Shown: positions 904 through 20,951 of the stretch, piece by piece
How the letters are laid out: each line of letters begins with the position of its first letter
Numbering within the stretch: the first letter of the stretch is position 1
NCBI GenBank assembly: GCA_903944555.1
Contig: CAJASG010000495.1
Coordinates: 1-23,527, forward strand
Direction of reading: 5' to 3'
DNA: 23,527 nt
Source: an uncultured beta proteobacterium
Lineage (GTDB): Bacteria > Pseudomonadota > Gammaproteobacteria > Burkholderiales > Burkholderiaceae_C
Notes under the pieces: model-generated
Seen by the model: only the letters and a program-made list of their open reading frames with translations
Told to the model about the DNA's origin: nothing
The model's database searches: none
Made by a program: the position numbers and the translations under genes

Positions 904-1917
904 GTGACACCACCCGAACTTCCCGAACTGCTGGCCCTTGAACGCATCATGGAGCTGGGTGCGAGCCAACTGGAAGCCCGTGTTGTGGGGCGGGTGGCTA
1001 TGCCCCAGGGTGGTGACTATCCCATTCATGCGGTGTCGCTGGGCAATCCGAATCCATCGGTCCCGGCGGTTGGCTATTTTGGGGGCGTACATGGCTTGGA
1101 GCGGATCGGTGCCGAAGTAGTGATTGCCTACTTGCAAAGTCTGGTGATGCGCTTGCAGTGGGACAGCACTTTGCACAAGCAACTGGAGTCGGTGCGCTTG
1201 GTCTTCATGCCGATTGTCAATCCGGGTGGCATGGCACTGGGAACCCGGGCCAACCCGCAGGGGGTGGACTTGATGCGCAACGCGCCCATTGCGTCCGTGG
1301 AGCCGGTGCCATTTTTGGTGGGTGGGCAGCGCATCAGCGCCCGCTTGCCGTGGTATCGGGGGGCCCAGGCTGCACCCATGGAAATCGAGAACAGGGCGGT
1401 GTGCGAGGTGGTCACGCAGGAGTTGCTGAGCCGCAAATTCAGCGTAGCGGTGGACTGCCATTCCGGCTTTGGCGCACGCGACCGCATCTGGTTTCCTTAT
1501 GCGCATACACGCGCACCCATTGCCCATCTGGCCGAAATCCAGGCGCTGAAAAAAATTTTTGTGCAGTCCAACAGCTACCACCGGTACATTTTTGAACCGC
1601 AGAGCCTGCAATATCTGGCGCATGGCGATGTGTGGGACTACCTGTACCAGCGGTCTTGCACCGAGGCGGATCGTGTTTTTTTGCCGCTGACGCTGGAGAT
1701 GGGCTCCTGGTTGTGGGTGAAGAAGAACCCGAGGCAGCTGTTCTCGCGCCATGGCATGTTCAACCCCTTGATTGAGCACCGGCAGCAGCGGGTGTTGCGC
1801 CAGCACCAGTCTTTTCTGGATTTTTTGTCGCGCGCGGCATGTGGCCATTCTCTGTGGTTGCCGACGATGGAAAATAGGGCGCATTTTTACGCACAGGCCT
1901 TGCAGGACTGGTACTGA
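904..1917 (+). CDS. M14-family zinc carboxypeptidase-like protein
   Basis: A 337-aa protein of the M14/succinylglutamate-desuccinylase-like superfamily, expected to hydrolyse a C-terminal amino acid or amide bond with one zinc ion. Visible ligands are H63 and E66 in GGVHGLERIG and H186 in VDCHSGFG. The probable catalytic glutamate is E265 in LTLEMGSW. An NPGG ... GVDLMRN stretch (residues 106-126) resembles the NPDG/GxxLNRN substrate-binding loop of M14 enzymes. There is no signal peptide or membrane segment, so it should be cytoplasmic. GTG 904 is chosen as start because AAAGG lies just upstream and the fold begins soon after. The 3' end overlaps the convergent CHAD gene by 31 bp. The substrate is unknown. 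Confidence 0.8.
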   Translation: MTPPELPELLALERIMELGASQLEARVVGRVAMPQGGDYPIHAVSLGNPNPSVPAVGYFGGVHGLERIGAEVVIAYLQSLVMRLQWDSTLHKQLESVRLVFMPIVNPGGMALGTRANPQGVDLMRNAPIASVEPVPFLVGGQRISARLPWYRGAQAAPMEIENRAVCEVVTQELLSRKFSVAVDCHSGFGARDRIWFPYAHTRAPIAHLAEIQALKKIFVQSNSYHRYIFEPQSLQYLAHGDVWDYLYQRSCTEADRVFLPLTLEMGSWLWVKKNPRQLFSRHGMFNPLIEHRQQRVLRQHQSFLDFLSRAACGHSLWLPTMENRAHFYAQALQDWY

Positions 1918-2744
1918 ACCCCGCGCAGAAAATCTGCCGGGCCACCTTTTAGACTAAGTTCGTCGACCAATGCGCTTGCCAGCGTGATGTCGCGCGCCGC
2001 GCCGATGTGCGCCTGAAGTTCCCTTGCCTGGGCGTACCAGTTCCGGGTGTGCAGCACCGGCAAAAGCGGGTGCAGCGCTTCTATGGCGTAGCGCATGCGC
2101 TTGGCAAGGATGCGCGTGCGGTGCTGGCTTTCGGCATCCACGGCCAATTTCCGCTGGGCCTGCAGTTCCTTATGCAAATGGGCCACGCGGTCGCGGGCCC
2201 ATTGGTGCAGTGTTCCTGCAATTTTGGTATTTGCGCCAGGTGGTCTCTTGGCGATGGGTAGGTCTTTCAGCCATTGTGTGGTGGCCTGCAAGCTGTGCTG
2301 GGTGGATGCCTGTTGCAGCGTGGCCCGCACGGCCTGACGTTGCTGGTGCGCTGCCTGCGTCAGCGTTTGCAGGAGTGCTTGCCAAGCACCGGCGCGGTGG
2401 GCGTCACCCGCTATGTAGGCCTGCGCAAGCGGGGGCAGGGTTTCCTTCAGTGCTACTTCGAGGTTTCTTAGCTTGCCCAACCCGCCCAGCAGTGGCCGCA
2501 GCGGGGCGGTGGGGGGCTTGGCGGTGGTGGGCAGTGTTGGCTTGAAAAGCCAAAGTGCGGTTTTGAAGCGGCGCCAGCCTATCCGCGTGTGGTGCACCAC
2601 CTCCGGGTCTTCCGAGGTGCCGACGTCGGCCAGATGGGTTGCGAATTCACGAAAAGCGTCGTTCAAAACCCATTTTGCTGCCTTGCGCCTGGATAGTTTG
2701 GGGTTCAGTCTGGATGCAAGTAATGGTGTTTCGGGCATGGTCAC
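1887..2744 (-). CDS. CHAD-domain protein (polyphosphate-associated family)
   Basis: A 285-aa, mostly alpha-helical, basic protein with the two CHAD signatures: VHHTRIGWRRFK (residues 50-61) and HRTRILAKRMRYAIEAL (208-224). CHAD proteins carry a conserved basic surface that binds polyphosphate, and several locate to polyphosphate granules. There is no CYTH (triphosphatase) domain, so it is probably a binding or scaffold protein. The start is GTG 2744 or ATG 2738; neither has a strong ribosome binding site (GAAGGA lies about 13 bases before the GTG). It is divergent from the olsB-plcP-agt operon and near ppk and ppx, which fits a polyphosphate role. Its 3' end overlaps the convergent peptidase gene. 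Confidence 0.85.
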   Translation of the reverse strand: MTMPETPLLASRLNPKLSRRKAAKWVLNDAFREFATHLADVGTSEDPEVVHHTRIGWRRFKTALWLFKPTLPTTAKPPTAPLRPLLGGLGKLRNLEVALKETLPPLAQAYIAGDAHRAGAWQALLQTLTQAAHQQRQAVRATLQQASTQHSLQATTQWLKDLPIAKRPPGANTKIAGTLHQWARDRVAHLHKELQAQRKLAVDAESQHRTRILAKRMRYAIEALHPLLPVLHTRNWYAQARELQAHIGAARDITLASALVDELSLKGGPADFLRGVQYQSCKACA

Positions 2745-2813: not shown

Positions 2814-2853
2814 GTGTCACACATTCTTCATGTTCGTGACTTTCTTGTGTCAT
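2814..2853 (+). promoter_or_regulatory. Candidate PhoB-binding array before the lipid-remodelling operon
   Basis: Four heptads at exact 11-bp steps: GTGTCAC (2814), TCTTCAT (2825), GTGACTT (2836) and GTGTCAT (2847). The first and last match CTGTCA(C/T) at 6/7; the inner two are weak. A CACACT hexamer (2864-2869) sits 11 bases after the array, the spacing seen at the better Pho promoters in this window, predicting a start near 2876 and a leader of about 35 nt. Confidence 0.45.
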
Positions 2854-2910: not shown

Positions 2911-3738
2911 ATGCAGAACTCTGTCAACACACATACCACCACGACCACACCACTGGCGCGGGCGGTCCATTCAATACCTGCCGACGTGCAGTCCGTGCCA
3001 GGCACTGGCGGCAAAGGTCTCTCCGTTACCTGGGCCAGCCACCAAGACGAGGTGCGTGCAGCGCAGCGTCTGCGTTTTGATGTTTTTGCAGGGGAAATGG
3101 GCGCGCGGCTCAATACGCCCATACCGGGCCACGATGTGGATCTGTTTGACAACTACTGTGAGCACCTGATCGTGCGGGACCAACTGACGCAGCAGGTGAT
3201 TGGCACCTACCGTGTGTTGACTCCCGTGCAGGCCAAGCGGGTTGGCAGCACATACAGCGACACCGAGTTCGATTTAACCCGCCTGCGCAGCCTGCGCGAG
3301 CGCATGGTGGAGCTGGGGCGTAGCTGTGTGCACAAGGACTACCGCCATGGTGGCGTCATCATGACGTTGTGGGGTGCTTTGGCCGAGTTCATGGTGCGCA
3401 ACCAGCTCGACACCATGATTGGTTGCGCCAGCGTGCCCATGCTGCACAACGGCATCGTCAGCGGGGACGCCGCCGCCAGCATCTGGCGCCAGGTGCAGGC
3501 CACGCATCTTGCACCCATTGAATACCATGTGCGTCCGCGCCTGCCACTTCCCATTGCGCAATTGGATTCCACCTTGGATGTGGAGCCGCCGGCCCTCATC
3601 AAGGGCTATTTGCGCCTGGGAGCCAAAGTGCTGGGCGCTCCGGCCTGGGACCCAGACTTCAACTCCGCCGACCTGCCTATGCTGATGCGCATCGCCGACT
3701 TGCCCGCACGTTACCGCAAACACTTTTTGGGGGCCTGA
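2911..3738 (+). CDS. olsB: OlsB-like N-acyltransferase (ornithine lipid synthesis)
   Basis: A 275-aa GNAT-fold protein of the OlsB/Acetyltransf_5 type, which transfers a 3-hydroxyacyl chain from acyl-ACP to the amino group of ornithine to form lyso-ornithine lipid at the inner face of the membrane. Family landmarks are AAQRLRFDVFAGEMGA (50-65), VIGTYRVL (96-103), ELGRSCVHKDYR (134-145), IGCASVP (170-176) and ALIKGYLRLGAKV (228-240). These correspond to segments I recall from rhizobial OlsB. ATG 2911 follows AGGAG by six bases. The stop overlaps the next start (TGATG), so translation is coupled to plcP. OlsA, which adds the second acyl chain, is not in the window. A different amino acid acceptor is possible, but the family call is strong. 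Confidence 0.82.
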   Translation: MQNSVNTHTTTTTPLARAVHSIPADVQSVPGTGGKGLSVTWASHQDEVRAAQRLRFDVFAGEMGARLNTPIPGHDVDLFDNYCEHLIVRDQLTQQVIGTYRVLTPVQAKRVGSTYSDTEFDLTRLRSLRERMVELGRSCVHKDYRHGGVIMTLWGALAEFMVRNQLDTMIGCASVPMLHNGIVSGDAAASIWRQVQATHLAPIEYHVRPRLPLPIAQLDSTLDVEPPALIKGYLRLGAKVLGAPAWDPDFNSADLPMLMRIADLPARYRKHFLGA

Positions 3739-4619
3739 TGCGCACCGCCTTCGATGCCATGGGCGCCAATTGGCAGGGGTTGATTGCCAATGCTGCGACG
3801 GACGGCGAAGAAGAGTTGGGGCACCACCGCTTGCGGGCCGTGTTTGTATCCGATATTCACCTTGGTACTGCGGGTTGTCAGGCACAGGCCTTGCTGGATT
3901 TTTTGAAGCACCACCCCAGCGATTCCCTTTATCTGGTGGGCGACATCGTGGACGGCTGGCAGTTGCGTCGCCGCTGGTTTTGGCCGCAGGCGCACAACGA
4001 CGTGGTTCAAAAGCTGCTGCGCCGCGCACGCAAGGGCTGCCGCGTGGTGTTTATTCCGGGTAATCATGACGAGTTTGCCCGTGCGTTTGTGGGGCACCAG
4101 TTCGGCGGAATTGAAGTGCACGCCGACACCGTGCACACCACGGCCGATGGCCGCACTCTGTGGGTGACCCATGGGGATTACTTTGACGGGGTGATTCAGT
4201 GTGCCAAGTGGCTCGCCTATCTGGGTGACAACCTTTACGAATTCACCCTCAAACTCAATCGCCACCTCAACAGCCTGCGGGCCCGTCTGGGCTTGCCCTA
4301 CTGGTCGCTTTCGGCTTACTTGAAGCAGAAGGTGAAAAAGGCATTGAATTACGTCACCGATTTTGAAGTGGCCGTGGCCGGCGAGGCCCGGGCGCGCGGG
4401 CACCACGGTGTGGTGTGTGGTCACATTCACCGGGCCGAAATGCGTGACATCAACGGCACCCTGTATTGCAATGATGGTGACTGGGTGGAGAGCCGCAGCG
4501 CCCTGGTGGAGCATATGGATGGCCGCCTGGAGCTGATCCATTGGGCGGGCGCACCTGCCCGCCCAGAAATGGCTCCCCGTATAGAGATTCAAAAACAATG
4601 GACGGAGACCCCCGCATGA
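3738..4619 (+). CDS. plcP: PlcP-like metallophosphoesterase (phospholipase C for lipid remodelling)
   Basis: A 293-aa calcineurin-like phosphoesterase. The two-metal motifs are all present: SDIHLG (38-43), VGDIVDGW (67-74), GNHDE (108-112), THGD (144-147) and GHIH (228-231). Such proteins are often labelled UDP-2,3-diacylglucosamine hydrolase, but the stretches WPQAHNDVVQKLLRRARKG (82-100), FGGIEV (122-127) and RLGLPYWSLS (183-192) resemble the rhizobial phospholipase C PlcP, which cleaves membrane phospholipid to diacylglycerol during phosphate starvation. There is no signal peptide. Its position between OlsB-like and GT4 genes, with overlaps on both sides, supports PlcP over LpxH. The substrate (PE, PG or other) cannot be read from sequence. 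Confidence 0.8.
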   Translation: MRTAFDAMGANWQGLIANAATDGEEELGHHRLRAVFVSDIHLGTAGCQAQALLDFLKHHPSDSLYLVGDIVDGWQLRRRWFWPQAHNDVVQKLLRRARKGCRVVFIPGNHDEFARAFVGHQFGGIEVHADTVHTTADGRTLWVTHGDYFDGVIQCAKWLAYLGDNLYEFTLKLNRHLNSLRARLGLPYWSLSAYLKQKVKKALNYVTDFEVAVAGEARARGHHGVVCGHIHRAEMRDINGTLYCNDGDWVESRSALVEHMDGRLELIHWAGAPARPEMAPRIEIQKQWTETPA

Positions 4620-5680
4620 AACTCGCATTGGTAACCGATGCATGGCAACCCCAAGTCAACGGTGTCGTGACGACGCTGGTGGAACTGGTGCGCGAAATGG
4701 AGACACTCGGGCACCAGGTGACCGTGATTCACCCCGGCTTGTTCACCACGCGGCCCTGCCCAGGCTACGATGGCATCGACCTCGCCGTACGCCCTGCCAA
4801 GCCACTGGCTGCACAACTTGATGCCTTGGCGCCGGATGCTGTGCATATTGCTACGGAAGGGCCCTTGGGCTGGGCGGCGCGACGGTATTGCATTCGCAAT
4901 AAGTTGGGTTTCACCACGGCATTTCACACCCGGTTTCCCGAGATTTTGAAGGCGGCCCTGAAAGTGCCGCTGTGGCTGGGTTATGCCGTATTTCGGCATT
5001 TTCACAAGCCCTCGTCCGGGGTCATGGTGCCAACCCCCAGTGTGCTGCGCATGCTGGAGGGTCGCGGGTTCAAGAATCTGCGCAGTTGGACCCATGGGGT
5101 CGACATGGACCTGTTCACCTACCAAGAAGCACCGGAGGTCTATCCTGCGCTGGGAACGCTGGCGCGCCCGGTGTCGTTGTTTGTAGGGCGGGTTTCCTAC
5201 GAGAAGAATATCGATGCGTTTCTCAAGCTCGATGTTCCGGGCACTAAGGTGGTGTGTGGGGTGGGGCCGCTGGAAGTGTCGTTGCGGGAACGTTACCCGC
5301 ACGTCCGGTGGCTGGGTCTGTTGCCCCGCGATGAGTTGGCACAGGTCTATGCGGCGGCGGATGTTTTTGTGATGCCCAGCCAGTCGGAAACCTTTGGTCT
5401 GGTGATGTTGGAGTCAATGGCTTGCGGCACGCCTGTTGCCGCGTTCCCGGTAGAGGGGCCGCTGGAAGTCGTGGGCGCACCGGCACGGGGCGGGGTGCTG
5501 GACAATGACTTGGCGGCTGGGTGGTACCGCGCACTTGCGCTGCCGCGCCACGAGGCCCGTGCGCGTGCGATGGACTTCAGTTGGGCTTACGCCTCCTTGC
5601 TATTCTTGGGGCATTTGGTGCCTGCCAAGCGGGGGCAGGTGTTTGATCGGATTGCAATATCGCACAGGGCTGTCACATAA
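4616..5680 (+). CDS. GT4 glycosyltransferase, probable glycolipid synthase (Agt-like)
   Basis: A 354-aa GT-B fold enzyme. The N-terminal half begins MKLALVTDAWQPQVNGVVTT, a glycine-containing loop typical of GT4. HIATEGPLGWAARR (77-90) and TAFHTRFPE (101-109) follow. The nucleotide-sugar half has FVGRVSYEKN (189-198) and the E-x7-E motif from E258 to E266 in SETFGLVMLES. Paired with PlcP, this class (Agt) glycosylates the diacylglycerol released by PlcP to make phosphate-free glycolipid at the cytoplasmic membrane. ATG 4616 is chosen because it overlaps the plcP stop (ATGA) and has GGAG nearby; an upstream in-frame ATG at 4541 lies inside plcP. The sugar donor is unknown. The stop lies inside the ppk Pho box. 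Confidence 0.8.
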   Translation: MKLALVTDAWQPQVNGVVTTLVELVREMETLGHQVTVIHPGLFTTRPCPGYDGIDLAVRPAKPLAAQLDALAPDAVHIATEGPLGWAARRYCIRNKLGFTTAFHTRFPEILKAALKVPLWLGYAVFRHFHKPSSGVMVPTPSVLRMLEGRGFKNLRSWTHGVDMDLFTYQEAPEVYPALGTLARPVSLFVGRVSYEKNIDAFLKLDVPGTKVVCGVGPLEVSLRERYPHVRWLGLLPRDELAQVYAAADVFVMPSQSETFGLVMLESMACGTPVAAFPVEGPLEVVGAPARGGVLDNDLAAGWYRALALPRHEARARAMDFSWAYASLLFLGHLVPAKRGQVFDRIAISHRAVT

Positions 5681-5703
5681 CTGTCATCTAATACGTCAAC
5701 AAT
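5670..5703 (+). promoter_or_regulatory. Pho promoter of ppk
   Basis: The 18-bp PhoB box CTGTCACATAACTGTCAT (5670-5687) matches both heptads of the CTGTCA(C/T) consensus exactly and has the AT-rich spacer. A -10-like AACAAT (5698-5703) starts 11 bases after the box, giving a predicted start near 5710. The box overlaps the stop codon of the upstream glycosyltransferase. Confidence 0.8.
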
Positions 5704-5721
5704 CCTTCATTGCTTTGTCAT
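5704..5721 (+). promoter_or_regulatory. Second PhoB-like heptad pair in the ppk leader
   Basis: CCTTCAT (5704) and TTGTCAT (5715) are 11 bp apart and match the heptad at 5/7 and 6/7. They lie downstream of the predicted start and are out of 11-bp phase with the main box by one base. If bound, they would more likely modulate than activate. Confidence 0.2.
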
Positions 5722-5737: not shown

Positions 5738-7846
5738 ATGTTGTCACTTCCTCGAAACTCTAAACTGCAGAGCGCGGCAGACTCCGCCCCTGAGTTGCTC
5801 GACCGCGACCACAGTCTTTTGGCTTTCAATGAGCGGGTGCTGGATTGGGCGATTCGTGGTGACGTGCCCTTGTTGGAGCGTTTGCGTTATCTGTGCATCG
5901 TGTCATCCAATCTGGATGAGTTCTTTGAGGTTCGCGCCGAACCTCATTTGGCAGCGTATTTGGCCAATGAGCGCAAAGGGGTGTACACACTGGACTCGTT
6001 CGAGCGCCTGGCCGATGCATTGCAAAATCTGGTGGCGCGCCAGTACGTCTTGTACAACGAGAAGTTGATGCCCGCCTTTGAGAAGCTGGGCATCAAAGTC
6101 ATCTCGCATGGCGAACGCAATGCGGTGCAGCGCCAATGGGTCAAGCAATATTTTGAGCGCGAAGTGCGCCCACTGCTGATCCCGGTGGGGCTAGACCCCT
6201 CGCACCCATTTCCGCAGGTGGCGAACAAGTCGCTGAACTTCATCGTGCGCCTGAGTGGCAAAGATGCTTTTGGCCGAGAAAACGAGATCGCCATTGTGAA
6301 AGTGCCACGCGTGTTACCGCGCCTGATCCGCATGCCGGACAAGGTGGCTGGTGGCATGACGGTTTTTGTCTCACTGTCCAGTGTGATTCGTGCCCATCTG
6401 GCCGAGTTGTTCCTTGGGCGGTCGGTGGGGCAGTTTTCACAGTTTCGGGTAACCCGGCATTCGGATTTGGCCGTGGATGAAGAAGATGTTCAGAACCTGC
6501 GTACCGCCTTGCGGCAAGGCTTGGCGCACCGTCACTATGGGCAAGCGGTCCGGCTTGAGGTGTCAGCAGGGTGCTCGGACTATTTGTCGGATTTCTTGCT
6601 GAAGCAATTTGAATTGCCTGCGAAGGCCCTGTACCGGGTGCAGGGCCCGGTCAATCTGGTCCGCCTGACGCAACTGATTGATTTGGTCGGGCGCCCAGAT
6701 CTGTGCTTTACGCCCTACAAAGCCAGTTACCCAGCCCAGATGAATTCGGCCCTGTCGATCTTTGATCAGCTCAAGCAAGGCGATATTCTGATTCACCAGC
6801 CCTTTGAGAGTTTTGATGGCGTGCTCGGATTTTTGCGCGAGGCGGTGAAAGATCCCCAAGTGCTGGCCATCAAGCAAACAATCTATCGCACGGGGTCTGA
6901 CTCCGAGCTGATGGATTTGCTGCGTGAAGCGGTACGGGTTGGCAAAGAGGTGACTGTGGTGGTGGAGCTGAAGGCACGTTTCGACGAAGAAGCCAACATC
7001 AATTGGGCCGAGATGCTGGAGTCAATAGGCGCGCAGGTGGTGTACGGCGTGGTGGGGCTAAAAACCCACGCCAAGATGATGCTTATCACCCGGCGCGAGG
7101 GTAAGAGCCTCAAACGCTATGGCCATTTATCGACTGGCAATTACAACCCGCGTACCGCAGGCCTGTATACCGATGTGAGCCACATCACTGCCGATGCCGC
7201 GCTGACTGCCGACATGGAGCACGTGTTCGTGCATTTGGCAAGTCATAGTAAGTTGCCAAAATTGCGTAAGGCCTGGATGGCGCCGTTTTACCTGCACCGC
7301 AACTTGATTGCGAAGGTGGATGCCCTGGGTGTGGCTGCGGCAAAGGGTGTGTCCACGCGGATTGTGGCAAAAATGAATTCGTTAACCGACGAGGCCTTGA
7401 TCCACAGCCTGATGCAGGCAGGGCAACGCGGTGTAAAAATTGACCTGATCGTGCGGGGCGCGTGTATGTTGCCAGCACAGGTGCAGGGGCATACCGACAA
7501 CATCCGTGTGCGCTCCATCATTGGCCGGTTTTTGGAGCATTCACGGGTTTTCTACTTCCGCAAGGGCGAAGAAGAGGACTTGTATTTGTCCAGTGCTGAT
7601 TGGATGAATCGCAACATGGTGCGACGGGTCGAGCTGGCCTGGCCGGTAACCGATCCCGTGCAACGCCAACGTATTGTGGATGAATGCCTGGTGGCTTACT
7701 TGCATGATGGCGTGGATGCCTGGGACATGGGGGCTGACGGCACCTACACCCACTTTAAAGGCGATGGGCAAACCCCTGTACATGGGGCGCAAGCGGCGCT
7801 GATGGCACGGTACGGGCGCAATGACCAGGGCAAACGAGGAGCGTGA
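5738..7846 (+). CDS. ppk: Polyphosphate kinase 1
   Basis: A 702-aa PPK1, close to the usual family length. It reversibly transfers the gamma-phosphate of ATP to the end of a polyphosphate chain, usually as a membrane-associated oligomer. The order of parts is right: helical N domain (LLAFNERVLDWA, SSNLDEFFEVRAEP), head domain, then two C domains. The catalytic histidines are visible as H444 in LKTHAKMMLI and H463 in YGHLSTGNYNPRTAGLYTDV; their 19-residue spacing equals that of E. coli H435/H454. ATG 5738 has AGG nine bases upstream. A strong PhoB box lies just upstream, and sixA begins four bases after the stop, so the two probably share a transcript. Confidence 0.97.
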   Translation: MLSLPRNSKLQSAADSAPELLDRDHSLLAFNERVLDWAIRGDVPLLERLRYLCIVSSNLDEFFEVRAEPHLAAYLANERKGVYTLDSFERLADALQNLVARQYVLYNEKLMPAFEKLGIKVISHGERNAVQRQWVKQYFEREVRPLLIPVGLDPSHPFPQVANKSLNFIVRLSGKDAFGRENEIAIVKVPRVLPRLIRMPDKVAGGMTVFVSLSSVIRAHLAELFLGRSVGQFSQFRVTRHSDLAVDEEDVQNLRTALRQGLAHRHYGQAVRLEVSAGCSDYLSDFLLKQFELPAKALYRVQGPVNLVRLTQLIDLVGRPDLCFTPYKASYPAQMNSALSIFDQLKQGDILIHQPFESFDGVLGFLREAVKDPQVLAIKQTIYRTGSDSELMDLLREAVRVGKEVTVVVELKARFDEEANINWAEMLESIGAQVVYGVVGLKTHAKMMLITRREGKSLKRYGHLSTGNYNPRTAGLYTDVSHITADAALTADMEHVFVHLASHSKLPKLRKAWMAPFYLHRNLIAKVDALGVAAAKGVSTRIVAKMNSLTDEALIHSLMQAGQRGVKIDLIVRGACMLPAQVQGHTDNIRVRSIIGRFLEHSRVFYFRKGEEEDLYLSSADWMNRNMVRRVELAWPVTDPVQRQRIVDECLVAYLHDGVDAWDMGADGTYTHFKGDGQTPVHGAQAALMARYGRNDQGKRGA

Positions 7847-8882: not shown

Positions 8883-8921
8883 ATTTCGACGGCATACACA
8901 GCGAACTCTGCTCCCTTTGGG

Positions 8922-8955
8922 CTGTCACAACGTTGTCACCCCCGCGCCATAGACT
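8922..8955 (+). promoter_or_regulatory. Pho promoter of the EAL-CBS-GGDEF gene
   Basis: The PhoB box CTGTCACAACGTTGTCAC (8922-8939) has heptads matching at 7/7 and 6/7. A -10-like TAGACT (8950-8955) starts 11 bases after the box, the same spacing as at ppk and pstS. The predicted start near 8962 is upstream of the GTG at 8985 and downstream of the alternative TTG at 8955. Confidence 0.75.
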
Positions 8956-8984
8956 TGATATTTACGGTTAATCAGGAGTCTTCA

Positions 8985-10784
8985 GTGAACAACAATTTGT
9001 TGCGAATCGTTCCCCGGTCGACGGGGATCACTGGTGGACAGGGGCCGCTGGAAAAGCTATTGCAGGAGAGTCGTCTCTACCCTGTATATCAACCGATTGT
9101 CAATCTGGCGGATGCGTCCATCCACGCCCACGAGGCCTTGATCCGCGGCCCGCAGGGGACATCCATGCACACGCCGGACGCATTGCTGCGGGCAGCTGCG
9201 GATGAGCGCATGGAGTACGAGTTCGAAAACGCGTGCGTGGTGGCTGCCATGCAAACTTGGGGGCAGCTTAATGTGCCGGGGCGTTTGTTCGTCAACATCA
9301 GCGCGGGTGTTTTGACCCGGTTGATGGCGATTCGTGGTCGAGACGCGTTGCTGGAACTGGTTTGTCAATTGGGGGTGGTGCCACGCATGTTGGTGCTGGA
9401 AATTACCGAGCATGAGCGCATTGCGGACATGGACCATTTTGCAGAAGTGGTGGCAGAGGTCCGTTCGGTGGGGGCATCCATCGCATTGGATGATTTTGGC
9501 GACGGCCACTCCAGCTTGAGGCTGTGGTCGCAGATCAAACCCGAGGTGGTGAAAGTTGACAAGTACTTCACCAAGGACATCAGCGAGCATGGCGACAAGT
9601 TAAAAACAATTCAGGCCTTGCAGCAAATTGCAACGATATTTGGAACGGAACTTGTGGCGGAGGGCATTGAGACCCAGGAAGACCTGCGGGTGCTGCGTGA
9701 CTTGGGAATCACCTATGGGCAAGGGTACTTTTTGGGGCATCCCGACCGCACACCGTTGAAGTATCTGGGCGTGGATTCCCAGCGGATTTTACGGGAGCGG
9801 CAGGTCGCCGTTTTTCCGGAATTGACCCGTGCCACCCAGGGCGGTCACTTGCGTAGCCTCTCTCTGGTTCGCGCACCAACCGTGACCGAAAACACCACCA
9901 ACGACGAGTTGGCCGCACTTTTTTTTGGGGCGCCGATTCTGCATGCAATCGCATTGCTGGATGGTGAACGGCCGTTGGCCATCATCAACCGTGCGCAATT
10001 CATGAATGAATACACCAAGCTGTACTACCGTGAAGTGTCCGGGAGAAAATCCTGCGCGGCGCATGCGAACCGGGAACCCCGACTCATCGAGCGTGACCAC
10101 AGCGTGGACCAGTTGATAGGGATATTGACTTCACAGGATCAGCGCTATTTGTCGGACGGTTTCATCGCCACCGAAAACGGACGATATGCTGGACTGGGCA
10201 CTGGTGACCAGTTGGTGCGCTCGGTCACCGAAACCCGCATTGAGGCGGCCCGGCATGCCAATCCGTTGACGTTCTTGCCCGGAAACATTCCGATTAGCCA
10301 GCACATCGAACGCCTGCTCAAGAAGCAAGTTCGGTTTGTCGCGTGTTATGCCGATCTAAACCATTTCAAACCCTTCAATGACCACTATGGCTACTGGCGT
10401 GGGGATGAAATGATCCGGTTGGTTGCCCGAACCGCCATGGAGCAATGTGACTCCCAGCGGGACTTTTTGGGCCATGTCGGCGGGGATGATTTCATTTTGC
10501 TGTTCCAAAGCGCGGACTGGCGTGCCCGGTGCGAGCGGCTGGTCCTTGATTTTCAAACTCGCGCGCTGGCCATGTTTGACGAAGACGCCCGCCGCGTGGG
10601 TGGGATTCAGGGCGAGGACCGCTACGGAGTGCCCCGGTTCTTTCCGTGTACCACCTTGTCGATCGGTGCCGTGGCTATCGATGGCAGCCAGTTTTCAAGG
10701 GCTGAAGATGTGGCCAATCTGGCGGCACAAAGCAAGCATCTCGCCAAGACGTCGGGAGCTGGTGTGTACGTACACCAGGCCTAA
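8985..10784 (+). CDS. Cyclic-di-GMP protein with EAL, CBS-pair-like and GGDEF domains
   Basis: A 599-aa soluble protein. The EAL domain (about 25-260) keeps the phosphodiesterase residues: E50 of EALIRG, N104 in FVNIS, E139 in LEITEHE, D169/D170 in LDDFG, K190 in VKVD, E226 and E229 in VAEGIET, and Q246 in GQGYFLG. So cyclic-di-GMP hydrolysis is expected. A middle segment (about 285-420) looks like a degenerate CBS pair, a ligand-sensing module. The C-terminal GGDEF domain has GGDDF at 499-503, with D for the usual E; ADLNHFKPFND (around 454-464) is the normal substrate loop. GTG 8985 is preferred over the longer TTG 8955 because AGGAG ends six bases before it and it lies after the predicted transcription start. 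No membrane segments are seen. Confidence 0.9.
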   Translation: MNNNLLRIVPRSTGITGGQGPLEKLLQESRLYPVYQPIVNLADASIHAHEALIRGPQGTSMHTPDALLRAAADERMEYEFENACVVAAMQTWGQLNVPGRLFVNISAGVLTRLMAIRGRDALLELVCQLGVVPRMLVLEITEHERIADMDHFAEVVAEVRSVGASIALDDFGDGHSSLRLWSQIKPEVVKVDKYFTKDISEHGDKLKTIQALQQIATIFGTELVAEGIETQEDLRVLRDLGITYGQGYFLGHPDRTPLKYLGVDSQRILRERQVAVFPELTRATQGGHLRSLSLVRAPTVTENTTNDELAALFFGAPILHAIALLDGERPLAIINRAQFMNEYTKLYYREVSGRKSCAAHANREPRLIERDHSVDQLIGILTSQDQRYLSDGFIATENGRYAGLGTGDQLVRSVTETRIEAARHANPLTFLPGNIPISQHIERLLKKQVRFVACYADLNHFKPFNDHYGYWRGDEMIRLVARTAMEQCDSQRDFLGHVGGDDFILLFQSADWRARCERLVLDFQTRALAMFDEDARRVGGIQGEDRYGVPRFFPCTTLSIGAVAIDGSQFSRAEDVANLAAQSKHLAKTSGAGVYVHQA

Positions 10785-14299: not shown

Positions 14300-14333
14300 T
14301 TGTCACATGCTTGTCATAAAAGCTTCTTAAAGT
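14300..14333 (+). promoter_or_regulatory. Pho promoter of the pst-pho operon
   Basis: The PhoB box TTGTCACATGCTTGTCAT (14300-14317) matches each heptad at 6/7. A -10-like TAAAGT (14328-14333) starts 11 bases after the box, and the predicted start is near 14340. This is the expected place for autoregulated pst control. Confidence 0.8.
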
Positions 14334-14366
14334 CCCTTCATTACTTAACCAACCAAAGGGTATTTG

Positions 14367-15410
14367 ATGAACATCTTTTTTAACCGAACAGTTTTGGCCG
14401 TTCTGGCTACAACAGCTTTGAGTTTCGCAAATGGCGCCAATGCCCAGGAAATTACCGGTGCAGGTGCAACCTTCCCAGCGCCGATTTATGCCAAATGGGC
14501 GTCTGATTACAACAAGGCGACCGGCGTCAAGGTGAACTACCAGTCCATCGGTTCAGGCGGTGGTATCAAGCAAATTGACTCGAAAACGGTGGACTTTGGT
14601 GCCTCCGATATGCCTCAAACCGATGAGGTTTTGAAGTCCAAAGGCCAAATGCAGTTCCCTACAGTGATGGGTGGTGTAGTACCTGTGATCAACGTCAAGG
14701 GTATTGAGCCAGGTCAGCTCAAGTTGAATGGCCAAGTGCTTGGCGACATTTTTCTGGGCAAGATCGCCCGCTGGAATGACCCCGCCATCAAGGCGCTGAA
14801 TCCATCGCTGCCTTTACCGGATGCGGCCATTGCCCAAGTGCGTCGCGCGGACGGCTCAGGAACCACGTTCATTTTTACCAACTACCTGAGCAAGGTCAAT
14901 GCCGAGTGGAAGTCCAAAGTGGGTGAGGGCACTGCAGTGAACTGGCCAGTGGGCGCGGGTGGCAAGGGCAATGAGGGTGTGGCTGCGTTTGTGGCGCGCC
15001 TGCCTAATTCCATGGGTTACGTGGAATATTCTTACGTTAAACAAAACAAGCTGAACTACGCGCTGATGCAAAACTCGGCAGGCAATTTCATCAAGCCTGA
15101 AGACGACACGTTCAAGGCCGCTGCTGCAGGTGCTGATTGGAACAAAACGTTCTATCACATTCTGACCAATCAGCCTGGCAAAGATGCTTGGCCTATCAGC
15201 GGTGCCACATTCATCTTGATGCATACCAAGCAAGACAAGCCTGCCAACGCCACGGAAGCCTTGAAGTTCTTTAGCTGGGCCTACAAGAACGGTGATGCAA
15301 CCGCTGCTGCGCTGGACTATGTGCCGATGCCCAAGTCCGTGATTGCGGCCATTGAGAAATCCTGGGGTGAAATCAAGGACGGTGCTGGTAAACCAGTGGC
15401 GTTCAAGTAA
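14367..15410 (+). CDS. pstS: Periplasmic phosphate-binding protein PstS
   Basis: A 347-aa phosphate-binding component of the high-affinity Pst transporter. A Sec signal peptide ends near ANA/QEITG. The mature start EITGAGATFPAPIYAKW, the GSGGGIKQI and DFGASDMP segments, and RRADGSGTTFIFTNYL are phosphate-contact regions of PstS. ATG 14367 is chosen because AAAGGG precedes it by six bases; a TTG three bases upstream is less likely. It is the first gene of pstSCAB-phoU-phoBR and has a good PhoB box upstream. Confidence 0.96.
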   Translation: MNIFFNRTVLAVLATTALSFANGANAQEITGAGATFPAPIYAKWASDYNKATGVKVNYQSIGSGGGIKQIDSKTVDFGASDMPQTDEVLKSKGQMQFPTVMGGVVPVINVKGIEPGQLKLNGQVLGDIFLGKIARWNDPAIKALNPSLPLPDAAIAQVRRADGSGTTFIFTNYLSKVNAEWKSKVGEGTAVNWPVGAGGKGNEGVAAFVARLPNSMGYVEYSYVKQNKLNYALMQNSAGNFIKPEDDTFKAAAAGADWNKTFYHILTNQPGKDAWPISGATFILMHTKQDKPANATEALKFFSWAYKNGDATAAALDYVPMPKSVIAAIEKSWGEIKDGAGKPVAFK

Positions 15411-15451
15411 GACAATCCCGTTAATATAAGCGCCAAGTGGAGATAAGCCTC

Positions 15452-16483
15452 ATGTCGTCCGTACTAGTGCATGGGGAGTCCCCATCTGGCTCTTCTGTAA
15501 AACCCATTGCCCGTGCTATGCCTAAAAAAAATCCCGAAAAAAGACCCAGATCCGGTCCGATGGCCGACCGCATTTTTGGCTGGGTGGCCAAGGGTGCGGC
15601 AGTGGTCGCGCTAGGGTTGTTGGTTGCGATATTGACCACACTCACGATCAGCGCTTGGCCAGCCATCAGTAAATATGGGTTTTCGTTTTTGACCAGCACC
15701 ACTTGGGACCCGGTCAAAGACGAATATGGCGGGTTGGTCATGATTTATGGCACTGTAGCGACCTCGGTTATCGCGCTGCTAATTGCGGTTCCGGTGAGTT
15801 TTGGCATTGCCTTATTTTTGACCGAATTATCTCCAGCTTGGCTCAAGCGCCCATTAGGCACCGCTATCGAGCTGCTGGCAGCGGTTCCCTCCATTGTGTA
15901 CGGCATGTGGGGTTTGCTGGTGTTTGGCCCGGTGTTGGCGACCTACGTGCAGCAACCACTGCAGGCCGCCTTTGATGGCGTGCCCTACCTGGGTGCATTT
16001 GTGTCTGGCCCCCCCGTGGGAATTGGCCTGCTGTCGGCAGGCATCATTTTGGCCATCATGATTATTCCTTTCATCGCGGCCGTGATGCGTGATGTGTTTG
16101 AAGTCACTCCCCCTTTGCTGAAAGAGTCGGCCTATGGGCTGGGAGCGACCACCTGGGAGGTCGTATCCAAAGTGGTGCTGCCTTACACCAAGACCGGTGT
16201 CATTGGCGGCATCATGCTGGGCTTGGGTCGCGCTATCGGTGAGACCATGGCCGTGACCTTTGTGATTGGTAACTTTAACCAGCTGGATTCCTTGAGTCTG
16301 TTTCAAGCCGCCAACAGCATTACCTCTGCCTTGGCTAATGAGTTTGCCGAGGCCTCAGAAGGTTTACACCAGGCTTCACTGATGTATCTGGGCTTGGTCC
16401 TTTTCTTTATTACCTTTGTGATCTTGTCGCTGTCCAAAATTCTGCTGTTGCAGTTGAAAAAAGGTGAGGGTACAAAAACATGA
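15452..16483 (+). CDS. pstC: Phosphate ABC transporter permease PstC
   Basis: A 343-aa inner-membrane permease with about six to seven membrane segments after a basic 45-residue N-terminal extension. The EAA-type loop is [20 protein letters not shown], and [18 protein letters not shown] follows, as in PstC. ATG 15452 has GGAG nine bases upstream; a GTG at 15437 is in frame but lacks a site. The stop overlaps the pstA start (ATGA), showing coupling. It forms the channel with PstA. Confidence 0.95.
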
Positions 16484-17340
16484 ACACCGCCTTGAACCAA
16501 GCCCGCGCTGCCAAATTTGCGCAACGTAACCGTATTAACAACCTTGCAACCTTCCTGGCGCTGTCTGCCATGGCCTTTGGTTTGTTTTGGCTCTTCTGGA
16601 TTCTGTTTGAAACGGTACGACTCGGCTTTGAGGGCCTGACTTTTGCCACCTTGACCCAAATGACGCCGCCGCCCAACGAAGAGGGTGGCTTGGCCAATGC
16701 CATCTACGGCTCTTTCCTTATGGTGGGTCTGGCGGCCTGCGTAGGGACACCGATTGGTGTGATGGCGGGTATTTACCTGGCTGAGTTTGATAGCAAGAGT
16801 TGGTTTGCTTCGCTGACCCGCTTTGTGAACGACATCTTGTTGTCCGCGCCTTCCATCGTGATCGGACTTTTCGTCTACGCGGTTGTGGTGTCAAGGTTCA
16901 AATCGTTTTCGGGCTACGCGGGGGTGCTTGCACTGTCTCTGATCGTGATTCCCGTCGTGATTCGCACCACCGAGAACATGCTGCAGTTGGTGCCTGCCGG
17001 TCTGCGGGAAGCAGCCTACGCATTGGGTGCCCCCAAGTGGAAGGTGATTTTGAGCATCACACTCAAAGCAGCTCGCGCAGGTGTCATTACCGGTGTTTTG
17101 CTGGCCGTTGCCCGCATTGCTGGTGAAACAGCGCCCTTGTTGTTTACCGCGTTGAGCAACCAGTTCTGGACCTCAAGTCTGGGTGAGCCCATGGCCAGTT
17201 TGCCGGTCACCATCTTCAAATTCGCCATGAGCCCGTATGAAAACTGGCAAAAATTGGCTTGGGCGGGCGTGCTACTGATTACGGTTGCTGTGTTGGCACT
17301 GAATATTCTCGCGCGGGTGATGACCCGCAGCAAAGCCTGA
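16480..17340 (+). CDS. pstA: Phosphate ABC transporter permease PstA
   Basis: A 286-aa permease with about six membrane segments. The coupling loop is [20 protein letters not shown], followed by [20 protein letters not shown], both typical of PstA. The short cytoplasmic N terminus ([20 protein letters not shown]) is basic. It starts in a 4-bp overlap with pstC and ends 33 bp before pstB. Confidence 0.95.
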
Positions 17341-17373
17341 TTCGTCTTCCTGCGACCTTTCTGATCTAACCTC

Positions 17374-18153
17374 ATGAACACAATTACTACTGCGCCGGAA
17401 AAGACCAAAATATCGGTCAAGGATTTGAACTTTTACTACGGAAAGTTCCATGCCCTCAAGGGCATCAATCTGGAAATTCCAGAGAATAAGGTCACCGCTT
17501 TTATCGGCCCGTCCGGGTGCGGAAAGTCCACGCTCTTGCGGGTTTTTAACCGCATGTTTGAGCTGTACCCTGAGCAGCGTGCCGAGGGCCAAATCCTGTT
17601 GGACGGTGAAAATTTACTGACCAGCAAAGAAGACGTGGCGTTGTTGCGTGCCAAGGTTGGTATGGTGTTCCAGAAGCCGACGCCGTTTCCGATGTCGATC
17701 TTTGACAACATTGCTTTTGGCGTTAAATTGTTTGAGTCACTCAACGCCACCGACATGGAAGAACGGGTCGAATGGGCTTTGCGCAAATCCGCTTTGTGGA
17801 CCGAGGTGAAGGATAAATTGCACCAAAGCGGGTCCAGCCTGTCTGGCGGTCAACAGCAACGCCTGTGTATTGCACGTGGTATCGCCATCAAGCCCGAGGT
17901 GTTGCTGCTGGATGAGCCTTGCTCGGCACTGGACCCGATTTCGACGGCGAAGGTCGAGGAGCTGATTGTGGAGCTCAAGAGCGATTACACCGTGGTCATC
18001 GTGACCCACAACATGCAGCAAGCCGCGCGTTGCAGCGACTACACCGCCTACATGTACCTGGGTGACTTGATGGAGTTTGGCTCCACCGAACAAATGATTT
18101 TCAAGCCTACCCGCAAAGAAACAGAAGACTACATCACTGGCCGTTTCGGCTAA
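17374..18153 (+). CDS. pstB: Phosphate ABC transporter ATPase PstB
   Basis: A 259-aa ABC ATPase that powers phosphate import. Walker A is GPSGCGKST (45-53), the Q-loop glutamine is Q100 (VFQKP), the signature is LSGGQQQR (156-163), Walker B is VLLLDEP (176-182) and the switch histidine is H212 (VTHNMQQA). [15 protein letters not shown] near the start is typical of PstB. The gene sits between pstA and phoU, and phoU starts nine bases after the stop with AAGGAAAG as binding site. Confidence 0.97.
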
Positions 18154-18162
18154 GGAAAGAAT

Positions 18163-18864
18163 ATGCCCGAAAAACACTTATCTACCCAGTTCGACAGCGA
18201 ACTGACTTCCGTTTCCTCCCGTGTCATGGAACTCGGCGGTTTGGTTGAATCGCAGATTCGCCAAGCGATCTATGCCCTGTCTCAATTCAGTGTGGAGGTG
18301 GCCAATGACGTAACTGCCAACGAAGCCCGGGTGAACGCGATGGAGATCGAGATTGATCGCGACCTTTCCAGCATCATTGCGCGTCGCCAGCCCACAGCCC
18401 GTGATTTGCGCCTGCTCATTGCCATTTCCAAAACTACCGCCAACCTGGAACGCGTAGGCGACGAAGCCGAGAAGATCGCTCGCATGGTGCGTTCCATCAT
18501 CAACAGTGGTGCCCCCCGTTCGCTGCCGTCTCTGGAGTTGCGGGTTGCCGCCGATTTGGCTTCCGGGCTGCTCAATAAGGCATTGGACGCATTCGCCAGA
18601 CTGGACGTCAATGCGGCGGTCACCATTCTCAAAGAGGATGACCTGATTGACAAAGAGTTCGACGGCTTTGTGCGCAAGCTCATCACCTACATGATGGAAG
18701 ATCCGCGCATGATTTCGCCCAGTCTGGATTTGCTGTTTCTGGCCAAGGCGATCGAGCGCATCGGTGACCATGCCAAGAATATTGCCGAGTTCATCATCTA
18801 TGTGGTGAAGGGCGAAGACGTTCGCCACTCCAGTATGGAAAAAATTGAGTCGGTCATCAAATGA
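18163..18864 (+). CDS. phoU: Phosphate signalling regulator PhoU
   Basis: A 233-aa all-helical protein with the two PhoU repeats (about 20-110 and 120-220). Each carries the metal-binding E/D pattern: ANLERVGDEAEKIARM in the first and AIERIGDHAKNIAEFI in the second. PhoU damps PhoR signalling when Pst is transporting phosphate. ATG 18163 follows AAGGAAAG. The stop overlaps phoB by four bases (ATGA), so the transporter and its regulators are tightly coupled. Confidence 0.96.
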   Translation: MPEKHLSTQFDSELTSVSSRVMELGGLVESQIRQAIYALSQFSVEVANDVTANEARVNAMEIEIDRDLSSIIARRQPTARDLRLLIAISKTTANLERVGDEAEKIARMVRSIINSGAPRSLPSLELRVAADLASGLLNKALDAFARLDVNAAVTILKEDDLIDKEFDGFVRKLITYMMEDPRMISPSLDLLFLAKAIERIGDHAKNIAEFIIYVVKGEDVRHSSMEKIESVIK

Positions 18865-19586
18865 GAAACATGCCCGCAGTCTTGGTAGTGGAGGATGAGC
18901 CGGCAATAGCCGAGCTGATCGCCGTGAATCTGCGGCATAACGGTTTTCGACCGACTTGGGCGATGGACAGTGAGAGTGCGCAGCGCGAACTCGATGCTGC
19001 CTTGCCGGACCTGATTTTGCTGGACTGGATGCTGCCAGGTGAAAGCGGCTTGGTATTGGCCAAGCGCTGGCGGGCCAACCCCCGAACCAAGGCGATTCCC
19101 CTGATCATGTTGACGGCGCGAGGAGATGAGTCTGACCGCGTGGCGGGTCTGGATGCCGGGGCTGACGACTACATTGCCAAGCCTTTTTCCACCAAAGAGT
19201 TGTTGGCCCGCATACGTGCTGTACTGCGCCGACGTGCCCCAGAACAAGCGGGCGAATCCATCACCATTGCGGGCTTGAGTCTTGACCCCGCAACCCACAG
19301 GGTGACCTTTCAGGATCAGCCCTTGAAGTTGGGACCCACCGAGTTCAAGCTGTTGCATTACCTGATGGGCAGTGCGGAGCGGGTGCACAGTCGTGCGCAG
19401 TTGCTTGACAAGGTGTGGGGTGACCATGTCTACATTGAAGAGCGTACTGTGGATGTGCACGTGAAGCGTTTGCGCGAAGCGCTGGCCCATGCGGGTGCTA
19501 TGGTGGAAACGGTTCGGGGTGCGGGCTACCGGTTGACCTCCAAGCCAGAGATCGCCGTTTTACCGATCGAAAAACTGAGCGCCTGA
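18861..19586 (+). CDS. phoB: Phosphate response regulator PhoB
   Basis: A 241-aa OmpR/PhoB-type regulator. The receiver domain has the acidic pair in VEDEP (10-14), the phosphoacceptor D55 in LLDWMLPG, and the lysine of IAKPFS. The C-terminal winged helix ends with ERTVDVHVKRLREAL and VRGAGYRL, the recognition helix and wing. Phosphorylated PhoB binds the CTGTCAT repeats found in this window. It starts within phoU at ATG 18861; ATG 18870 is an alternative that would remove three residues. Confidence 0.96.
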   Translation: MRNMPAVLVVEDEPAIAELIAVNLRHNGFRPTWAMDSESAQRELDAALPDLILLDWMLPGESGLVLAKRWRANPRTKAIPLIMLTARGDESDRVAGLDAGADDYIAKPFSTKELLARIRAVLRRRAPEQAGESITIAGLSLDPATHRVTFQDQPLKLGPTEFKLLHYLMGSAERVHSRAQLLDKVWGDHVYIEERTVDVHVKRLREALAHAGAMVETVRGAGYRLTSKPEIAVLPIEKLSA

Positions 19587-19592
19587 TTTACT

Positions 19593-20951
19593 TTGCTAAC
19601 ACGCATGCTCTGGCGAGTTTCCTCGTTTTTTCTTTTCCAAGCCACGGCTGCGGCGCTTGGCTGGTATTTGGCATCGCACGGTAACGAAGTGCTGGATGCC
19701 TTGGCTTTGGCTGTGCTGGGAGGCTATGTTTGGCTTTCTCTGGATGCCTTGCGAGGCATGCGCCTGCTACGCTGGTTGCGTCTGGGGGAGACCGGTAGTG
19801 TGGCTGTCGGTAGTGGCCTTTGGGGCGAGGTGTCGGACCGTGTCCGCCGATTGATTCGGGCTCGGGATCGGCTTGCCATTGACAGCGAGGGCAGGCTTCA
19901 GGATTTTTTGGCGGCTTTGCAGGCTTCCCCCAATGGCGTAGTGCTGCTAGATGCTGAGGGACGGATTGAATGGTTAAACCAGACGGCTGCTGGCCATTTT
20001 GGATTTGATGCCCGACGTGACGTGCTGCAGCACTTTGGGAATTTGGTACGTGATCCCGGATTTGCGGCGTACTACGGTGCGCGTGATTTTCGTCGGGATG
20101 TAATCATGCCGGGGCGTGAGAGCACCAGTTCCAAGCCGGTCAAACTTTCGGTGCATCTGCACCCCTATGGGGAAGGTCGTAGCCTGCTGCTGTCCCATGA
20201 CATTACCGCGGTGGAGCAGGCCGATGCCATGCGCCGCGATTTCGTGGCCAACGTGTCGCACGAAATTCGTACTCCACTGACCGTGTTGGCAGGCTTTGTC
20301 GAAACCATGCAATCTCTGCCTTTGCCTGACCAAGAGCGGCAACGCTATTTGGGCTTGATGTCGCACCAGGCCCAGCGCATGCAAACCTTGGTCAACGACT
20401 TGTTGATGCTTTCTCGGCTGGAGGGCAGTCCCTTGCCGCCCACGCAGGAGTGGATTTCGGTGAGCGCATTGATGACGCAGTGCGAGCAAGATGCGCATGA
20501 TTTGTCCAGCGTGGTGTTTGCCCGCGTCAAAGATGTGAGTTTCGAGGTTGAAGGTGTCTGCGAGCTGGCGGGCTCCTCATCGGAGTTGCACAGTGCAATG
20601 TTCAACCTGATTGGCAATGCTATACGCTACACGCCCGGTGACCGGGCTATCCACGTCAGTTGGCGTTTGTTGCCCCATGGAGCAGCTGTTTTTGCAGTCA
20701 AAGATGCTGGCCCAGGCATTGCTCCGGAGCATATTGCCCGATTGACGGAGCGTTTTTATCGGGTCGATCGCAGTCGTTCACGCGACACCGGTGGTACTGG
20801 TTTGGGCTTGGCGATCGTGAAGCACGTGGCACAACGCCATGGCGCCGAGTTGGGCATTGAGAGTGTGCCCGGCAAAGGTTCGACGTTTTCGATCACCTTC
20901 CCGGCGCAACGGGTCCGCCCCGCGATCTTGAAGCAAGCCGTGCTGGCTTAG
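19593..20951 (+). CDS. phoR: Phosphate sensor histidine kinase PhoR
   Basis: A kinase of about 452 aa. Two N-terminal membrane segments (about 10-28 and 33-52) have almost no periplasmic loop, which fits sensing through PstSCAB-PhoU rather than direct ligand binding. A PAS domain (about 105-205) follows. The H box is FVANVSHEIRTPLTVLAGF with H223, the N box is NLIGNAIRYTPG, and the G boxes are DAGPGIAPEHI and GGTGLGLAIVKH. Start: TTG 19593 gives the full membrane pair and lies six bases after the phoB stop; ATG 19605 is an alternative. Neither has a strong ribosome binding site. Confidence 0.94.
   Translation: MLTRMLWRVSSFFLFQATAAALGWYLASHGNEVLDALALAVLGGYVWLSLDALRGMRLLRWLRLGETGSVAVGSGLWGEVSDRVRRLIRARDRLAIDSEGRLQDFLAALQASPNGVVLLDAEGRIEWLNQTAAGHFGFDARRDVLQHFGNLVRDPGFAAYYGARDFRRDVIMPGRESTSSKPVKLSVHLHPYGEGRSLLLSHDITAVEQADAMRRDFVANVSHEIRTPLTVLAGFVETMQSLPLPDQERQRYLGLMSHQAQRMQTLVNDLLMLSRLEGSPLPPTQEWISVSALMTQCEQDAHDLSSVVFARVKDVSFEVEGVCELAGSSSELHSAMFNLIGNAIRYTPGDRAIHVSWRLLPHGAAVFAVKDAGPGIAPEHIARLTERFYRVDRSRSRDTGGTGLGLAIVKHVAQRHGAELGIESVPGKGSTFSITFPAQRVRPAILKQAVLA

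Follow-up and report, generated by a model that had tools for sequence, protein, structure and literature searches.

Can a single transcription unit set a bacterium to remove phosphate from its membranes and, at the same time, to refill them with phosphate-free lipids? The question is raised by a locus in the DNA of an uncultured beta proteobacterium (Burkholderiales; Burkholderiaceae_C). The whole stretch that we analyzed, positions 1 to 23,527 of contig CAJASG010000495.1 (assembly GCA_903944555.1), is called the window below. Three genes stand there in a row: an olsB-like N-acyltransferase gene, the metallophosphoesterase gene plcP and an agt-like glycosyltransferase gene. We conclude that olsB-plcP-agt is probably (about 80%) an operon of the PhoB type that remodels membrane lipids when phosphate runs short, the enzymatic activities being predicted from the protein families. 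The initial annotation had proposed a lipid-remodeling operon here. This interpretation is supported by a tree that sets PlcP apart from LpxH and by the conservation of the gene unit; the lipid products remain predictions.

PlcP splits phospholipid into diacylglycerol and a phosphoalcohol; Agt adds a sugar to the diacylglycerol, and ornithine lipid, which is free of phosphate, is made by OlsB together with OlsA (PMC3972451, with general knowledge of the families). What we found in the literature on how lipids are remodeled when phosphate is short comes from alphaproteobacteria, methanotrophs, Pseudomonas and marine bacteria. In marine isolates, an agt homolog is the commonest neighbor of plcP (PMC4796936), and a phoBR mutant of Pseudomonas BIRD-1 lacks both PlcP and OlsAB (PMC5082522). 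Pho boxes have been predicted before olsB in 21 of 43 genomes of Burkholderia sensu lato (PMC7814305); the same paper states that the gene context of olsB is conserved in this group, without showing the context.

Three overlapping genes lie directly upstream of ppk1

The head gene of the unit, olsB (positions 2911..3738, + strand; an open reading frame, ORF, of 275 amino acids), would encode a GNAT N-acyltransferase. Its TGA stop (3736-3738) shares one nucleotide with the ATG of plcP at 3738. The plcP gene (3738..4619, +; 293 amino acids) would encode a metallophosphoesterase of the phospholipase C type, and its stop codon (4617-4619) overlaps by 4 nucleotides (nt) the agt-like gene for a family 4 glycosyltransferase, GT4 (4616..5680, +; 354 amino acids from the ATG at 4616). 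We took this ATG as the start because the alignment of relatives begins there; a TTG at 4541, given by a mechanical ORF list, was rejected. The overlaps of one and four bases noted at the outset are thus confirmed by the ORF coordinates and the start and stop codons. The unit lies directly 5' of the polyphosphate kinase 1 gene, ppk1 (5738..7846, +), with 57 nt between the end of agt and its start. The ppk1 product scores 856 bits on TIGR03705 (cut-off 465.85), so the neighboring ppk of the initial annotation is there as well. PlcP, the OlsB-like protein and the glycosyltransferase (GT) each give one match in the source assembly (4.07 Mb, 792 contigs, 91% complete) at E 1e-3, 1e-10 and 1e-50, respectively.

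These genes suggest a simple scheme. PlcP would take the phosphate head groups off glycerophospholipids and leave diacylglycerol, which the Agt-like GT4 would glycosylate to a phosphate-free glycolipid. The OlsB-like enzyme would make a lyso-lipid by N-acylating an amino acid (ornithine is the most likely one), and OlsA, encoded at an unlinked locus, would complete it; ppk1 next door, with Pho-box-like sites of its own, would handle polyphosphate. Because the overlapping frames couple the three genes, phospholipid removal and both replacement routes would rise together.

The head gene encodes an OlsB-like protein

The OlsB-like protein matches the GNAT domain PF13444 (Acetyltransf_5) with 120 bits (cut-off 22.4), and among the NCBIfam models it scores best on the two for OlsB. 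The scores stay under both curated cut-offs (155.5 of 350 and 142 of 320 bits), and we therefore keep the name "OlsB-like". Both cut-offs are clade-bound, for S. meliloti OlsB is over one (511.5 versus 320) and under the other (242.3 versus 350). The window protein is 32% identical to S. meliloti OlsB, and an alignment of nine sequences has 38 invariant columns. A PDB sequence search with the OlsB-like protein gave no useful match.

No olsA lies within the operon. In Kitasatospora and Methylomagnum, whose OlsB relatives are 45% and 40% identical to the window protein, the gene overlaps one for an OlsA-type acyltransferase; these OlsA-type proteins themselves score under the OlsA cut-offs. Seven acyltransferase loci were found in the window's own genome. 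One of them, L004 (848-1702 of that locus, -), ranks top on the OlsA models and is 36-37% identical to the OlsA-type proteins of Kitasatospora and Methylomagnum; at 126.5 of 300 bits, it is a weak candidate for OlsA. The families (PF13444, Metallophos and GT4) agree with the claim of two phosphate-free lipid routes from the operon, with one correction: OlsB by itself would not complete ornithine lipid, and OlsA is outside the operon.

The same remodeling operon might make a different amino lipid, the GNAT enzyme acylating another amino acid (compare GlsB and the glutamine lipid of roseobacters). OlsB-analogous N-acyltransferases do serve other amino lipids (PMC8319176), and both the modest identity to S. 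meliloti OlsB and the missed cut-offs leave room for this. However, the OlsB models are the best NCBIfam matches, and the relatives overlap OlsA-type acyltransferase genes. We consider another amino acid an unlikely alternative, though one to be taken seriously, and ornithine the most likely substrate.

The olsB-plcP-agt unit is conserved

We surveyed 150 genomes of the family and a class-wide draw of 140 genomes. In the family, PlcP was found in 111 genomes, the OlsB-like protein in 127 and the GT in 55. The 111 genomes hold 112 PlcP places, which became 110 loci when a 100-residue fragment (genome G090) and a second copy (G143) were left out. In 43 of the 150 genomes, plcP has olsB as its immediate upstream neighbor, against a rough chance estimate of about 0.01 of the 106 genomes that hold both. 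In 32 of the 43, the window's own included, agt follows directly downstream too. The adjacency survey proposed at the outset thus reveals a conserved unit that is not special to the window's genome. Among the other 11 linked genomes, three have a GT match elsewhere (cut by a contig end, 798 nt downstream, or on another contig) and eight lack Agt at E 1e-50, so the olsB-plcP pair persists even where no user of the diacylglycerol is known. The plcP-agt pair occurs at 15 further places in family genomes with olsB elsewhere. A single genome has olsB followed directly by agt (G101:C1:2531389-2533204), with plcP elsewhere.

Across genomes, agt depends on plcP. The GT matches Glycos_transf_1 and Glyco_transf_4, and all 55 family genomes that carry it (E 1e-50) also have PlcP (E 1e-20; hypergeometric p 4.5e-10, kinship ignored). 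In a GT tree of 74 rows, which compares 63 plcP-adjacent GTs with a few paralogs and no characterized Agt, the window GT falls among the other plcP-adjacent ones and the adjacency label changes twice; the sole exception inside the plcP-adjacent group is the GT 798 nt downstream of plcP. A strict EX7E-type pattern matched 29 of the 63 plcP-adjacent rows and was not used.

In the class-wide draw, PlcP is present in 44 of the 140 genomes, two of them from the family itself. Of the other 42, 28 were analyzed as loci with 1.5 kb flanks. None of these has olsB as a direct neighbor of plcP, although at two of them the edge of the locus gives a weak, partial olsB match in the opposite orientation. A GT lies directly downstream of plcP in 15 of these loci (strong matches) and in two more (weak matches).

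Named loci came from a contig scan, of which the best 80 of a longer list were taken; they are no census. Among these 80, olsB is directly upstream of plcP in 27, and 14 of those have agt as well, including two Acidovorax, four Limnohabitans, one Curvibacter, one Polaromonas and metagenome-assembled genomes (MAGs). Also among the best 80, the flanks show plcP-agt and no olsB at four Burkholderia, three named Paraburkholderia and two Cupriavidus loci. At two Undibacterium loci olsB-plcP stands without agt, and at five Variovorax loci neither olsB nor agt lies within about 5 kb of plcP. Individual loci with olsB-plcP and no agt are L187 (Limnohabitans), L190 (a Comamonadaceae MAG), and L244 and L254 (Undibacterium).

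A single set of 46 rows in the PlcP tree (SH-aLRT 97) takes in every one of the 43 linked rows, and the linkage label changes 4 times, versus 37.1 on average in shuffles. The family pattern fits one gain and three losses of linkage, with 51 of the 140 inner branches open. Linkage is also seen in five distant cases, with OlsB identities of just 44-51%: the pair of Undibacterium loci, one Oxalobacteraceae MAG and two further loci. These may have an older or separate origin.

The three genes might also be no more than passengers of a phosphate island, held together by common regulation or inherited order, with enzymes that are not functionally coupled. That linkage tracks one clade within the family would agree with this, as would the plcP loci near ppk1: at 49 of the 110 family loci ppk1 follows plcP at a distance of up to 2.2 kb, and 11 of these have neither olsB nor agt. 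(For 30 of the 110 family loci and for the 28 class loci the flanks are 1.5 kb, and a missing ppk1 there is uninformative.) However, the reading frames overlap, the GT never occurs without PlcP among the 150 genomes, and the distant cases repeat the linkage. We therefore regard a passive island as improbable.

The metallophosphoesterase is PlcP by family

The protein encoded at 3738-4619 has a Metallophos domain and is 52.6% identical, over 86%, to S. meliloti PlcP; to the PlcP of Curvibacter sp. AEP1-3 it is 83% identical over 92%. The S. meliloti gene lies beside sinI/sinR-type genes, and we take it to be that of the characterized PlcP. The predicted metal site is of the calcineurin type (D-x-H, GD, GNHD, H and GH-x-H, with GNHDE). 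Its columns are invariant in alignments of 24 and 25 sequences, E112 nearly so, and are common to S. meliloti PlcP.

LpxH resembles the window PlcP in fold and in metal-site residues. The two differ in that LpxH has GNRDF in place of GNHDE, and the LpxH model gives the window protein 36.3 bits against a cut-off of 190.35. A separate LpxH, encoded elsewhere in the same genome, reaches 190.7 bits and is over the cut-off. In a tree made by a quick method, with long LpxH branches, the window PlcP falls on the S. meliloti PlcP side and the LpxH rows stand apart (SH-aLRT 100); the clustering with LpxH that the initial annotation had set beforehand as counter-evidence was not seen. A PDB sequence search with PlcP found a single entry, which is an LpxH (E 0.12). 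The structural comparison against PlcP and LpxH that had been suggested was less telling: the nearest solved fold is that of LpxH, PlcP and LpxH are not separated, and the result was given no weight in the identification.

That the protein is an LpxH paralog in lipid A synthesis, and the operon one for lipopolysaccharide, is very improbable: public names and the closest solved folds point to LpxH, but the low LpxH score, the GNHDE motif, the separate LpxH, the tree and the coupling of plcP to olsB and agt all speak against it. We thus rejected an LpxH identity for 3738-4619; the metallophosphoesterase is, by family, PlcP, and phospholipase C activity on phospholipids is predicted for it.

Public names often label PlcP proteins UDP-2,3-diacylglucosamine diphosphatase or LpxH. 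Such a name is wrong at least in genomes that, like the window's, encode LpxH separately, and a frequent annotation of PlcP as a lipid A enzyme is thereby corrected.

Over relatives, Pho-box-like sites are enriched before the head gene of the unit

We scored sites against the Pho-box consensus CTGTCAT-4-CTGTCAT over 14 positions. The best site of the window on either strand (13/14; 5670..5687, +) overlaps agt at its 3' end and precedes ppk1, as does a second site (11/14; 5704..5721, +). The site upstream of olsB (2836..2853, +) is weak, at 10/14. Other 11/14 sites in the window are at 14300, before pstS, and at 8922.

Over the relatives, sites are enriched. The best score averages 9.91 before linked olsB (8.44 in shuffles; sd of the mean 0.12; n=43), 9.76 before plcP without linked olsB (8.33; n=67) and 10.47 before ppk1 (8.23; n=49). 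Gaps of over 60 nt between olsB and plcP show no enrichment (7.53 versus 7.84; n=19). Sites of at least 11/14 tell the same: they precede linked olsB at 13 of 43 loci (0.4 expected from shuffles), plcP without linked olsB at 15 of 67 (0.6 expected) and ppk1 at 26 of 49 (0.4 expected), and occur in none of the 19 gaps. A coding control inside plcP is at background (0/43). Since sites are enriched before linked olsB or unlinked plcP and not in the gaps, olsB apparently became the head of a PhoB-type unit. The simplest reading would be that promoter and Pho-box-like site go with whichever gene heads the unit; PhoB binding and a single olsB-plcP-agt transcript are predictions.

Discussion

Several observations weigh against a PhoB-type remodeling operon. 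The OlsB-like protein and the OlsA candidate both score under their cut-offs, and olsA is not in the operon. PlcP is without olsB linkage in 68 of 111 genomes, and Agt is missing from 8 of the 43 linked ones. When the 400 nt before olsB are shuffled 100 times, the window's 10/14 score is matched in 14 cases; only 13 of the 43 linked loci attain 11/14 there, and a coding control inside olsB is above shuffles (8.93 versus 8.46; 3/43 at 11/14 or more, 0.6 expected).

How does the unit compare with known systems? It is most like the plcP-agt pair, in which PlcP is directly followed by an Agt-like GT (type 2, PMC4796936; Methylosinus trichosporium OB3b, PMC9239053; P. aeruginosa PA3219-PA3218, PMC8528852) and for which Pho boxes are also reported (PMC4796936, PMC8528852). 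It differs in being headed by an olsB-like gene and followed by ppk1; in the accessible text of these papers, olsB is not reported beside plcP. With the olsBA operon of P. aeruginosa, raised there at low phosphate (PMC9804370), it shares an OlsB-type N-acyltransferase, whereas the window olsB has no adjoining olsA and is joined to plcP and agt. The plcP-btaAB arrangement (type 1, PMC4796936) likewise combines plcP with genes for a phosphate-free lipid; that lipid is the betaine lipid DGTS, whereas the window unit would supply an amino lipid and a glycolipid.

In the accessible parts of the open-licence PubMed Central literature, we found no description of an operon that joins olsB to plcP or agt; the supplementary tables, including the plcP neighborhood list of PMC4796936, were outside this scope. 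The available text of PMC10667739 and PMC12226003 likewise has nothing on an olsB-plcP-agt operon. The view that olsB added to plcP-agt is not a standard description agrees with this search. The gene arrangement is real, conserved and coherent; its parts are known, and as a whole it is apparently undescribed.

We propose tentatively, and regard as doubtful, an account of how the unit arose: in one Burkholderiales lineage, olsB may have taken over from plcP the position next to the Pho box. A single promoter would then fix how much phospholipid is broken down relative to the amino lipid and glycolipid that are made, and ppk1, which has Pho-box-like sites as well, could bank the phosphate set free. 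At loci that lack agt, the core would be olsB-plcP alone; with such a core, phospholipid removal and amino lipid supply would be coupled directly, and diacylglycerol would go by another route. The one-unit version in Comamonadaceae-type bacteria, including Limnohabitans, a prominent genus of freshwater plankton (PMC3591437), makes single-switch control of amino lipid and glycolipid replacement directly testable.

Other plcP neighborhoods and the rest of the window

Adjoining plcP and agt-like genes are also found on plasmids (NZ_CP137508.1, CP075839.1, NZ_CP042268.1 and Roseomonas plasmids, L088), three P. aeruginosa plasmids included. On a plasmid of Mitsuaria sp. 7 (L087, 4953-9736), plcP is followed by ppk1 and a Ppx/GppA gene, without olsB or agt.

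A search for conserved neighbors at the 50 family loci without olsB and agt listed 16 clusters, several of them shadow ORFs. The genuine clusters that we checked are ppk1 and four named by similarity to one member each: phosphatidylserine decarboxylase (13 loci), RecJ-like (11), ppx-like (11) and aminotransferase-like (10). Of these four names, Pfam confirmed the decarboxylase only, the others being judged by eye. The decarboxylase gene lies within about 3.8 kb of plcP at its 13 loci (L109, L113, L130, L143, L145, L155-L157, L160-L163 and L167). In three it is on the same strand, directly upstream of plcP (65-147 nt); in the rest its orientation varies.

Within the window, a Ppx/GppA-type gene lies beyond ppk1, and pstS-pstC-pstA-pstB-phoU-phoB-phoR follow further along (14364-20951). 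A 571-amino-acid ORF at 20955-22670 (-) has no NCBIfam or Pfam match at the thresholds used. On the other side of the unit, an ORF at 904-1917 (+) matches Peptidase_M14 (zinc carboxypeptidase); a longer minus-strand ORF opposite it (592-1884) is without a family match and looks spurious. A CHAD-domain protein is encoded at 1887-2744 (-), divergent from olsB, with which it has a common upstream region of 166 nt; CHAD proteins are associated with polyphosphate. Finally, Pho-box-like sites (11 and 10 of 14) lie at 8911-8954, just 5' of the gene for an EAL-GGDEF protein (8955-10784), and could tie phosphate to the turnover of cyclic di-GMP (c-di-GMP).

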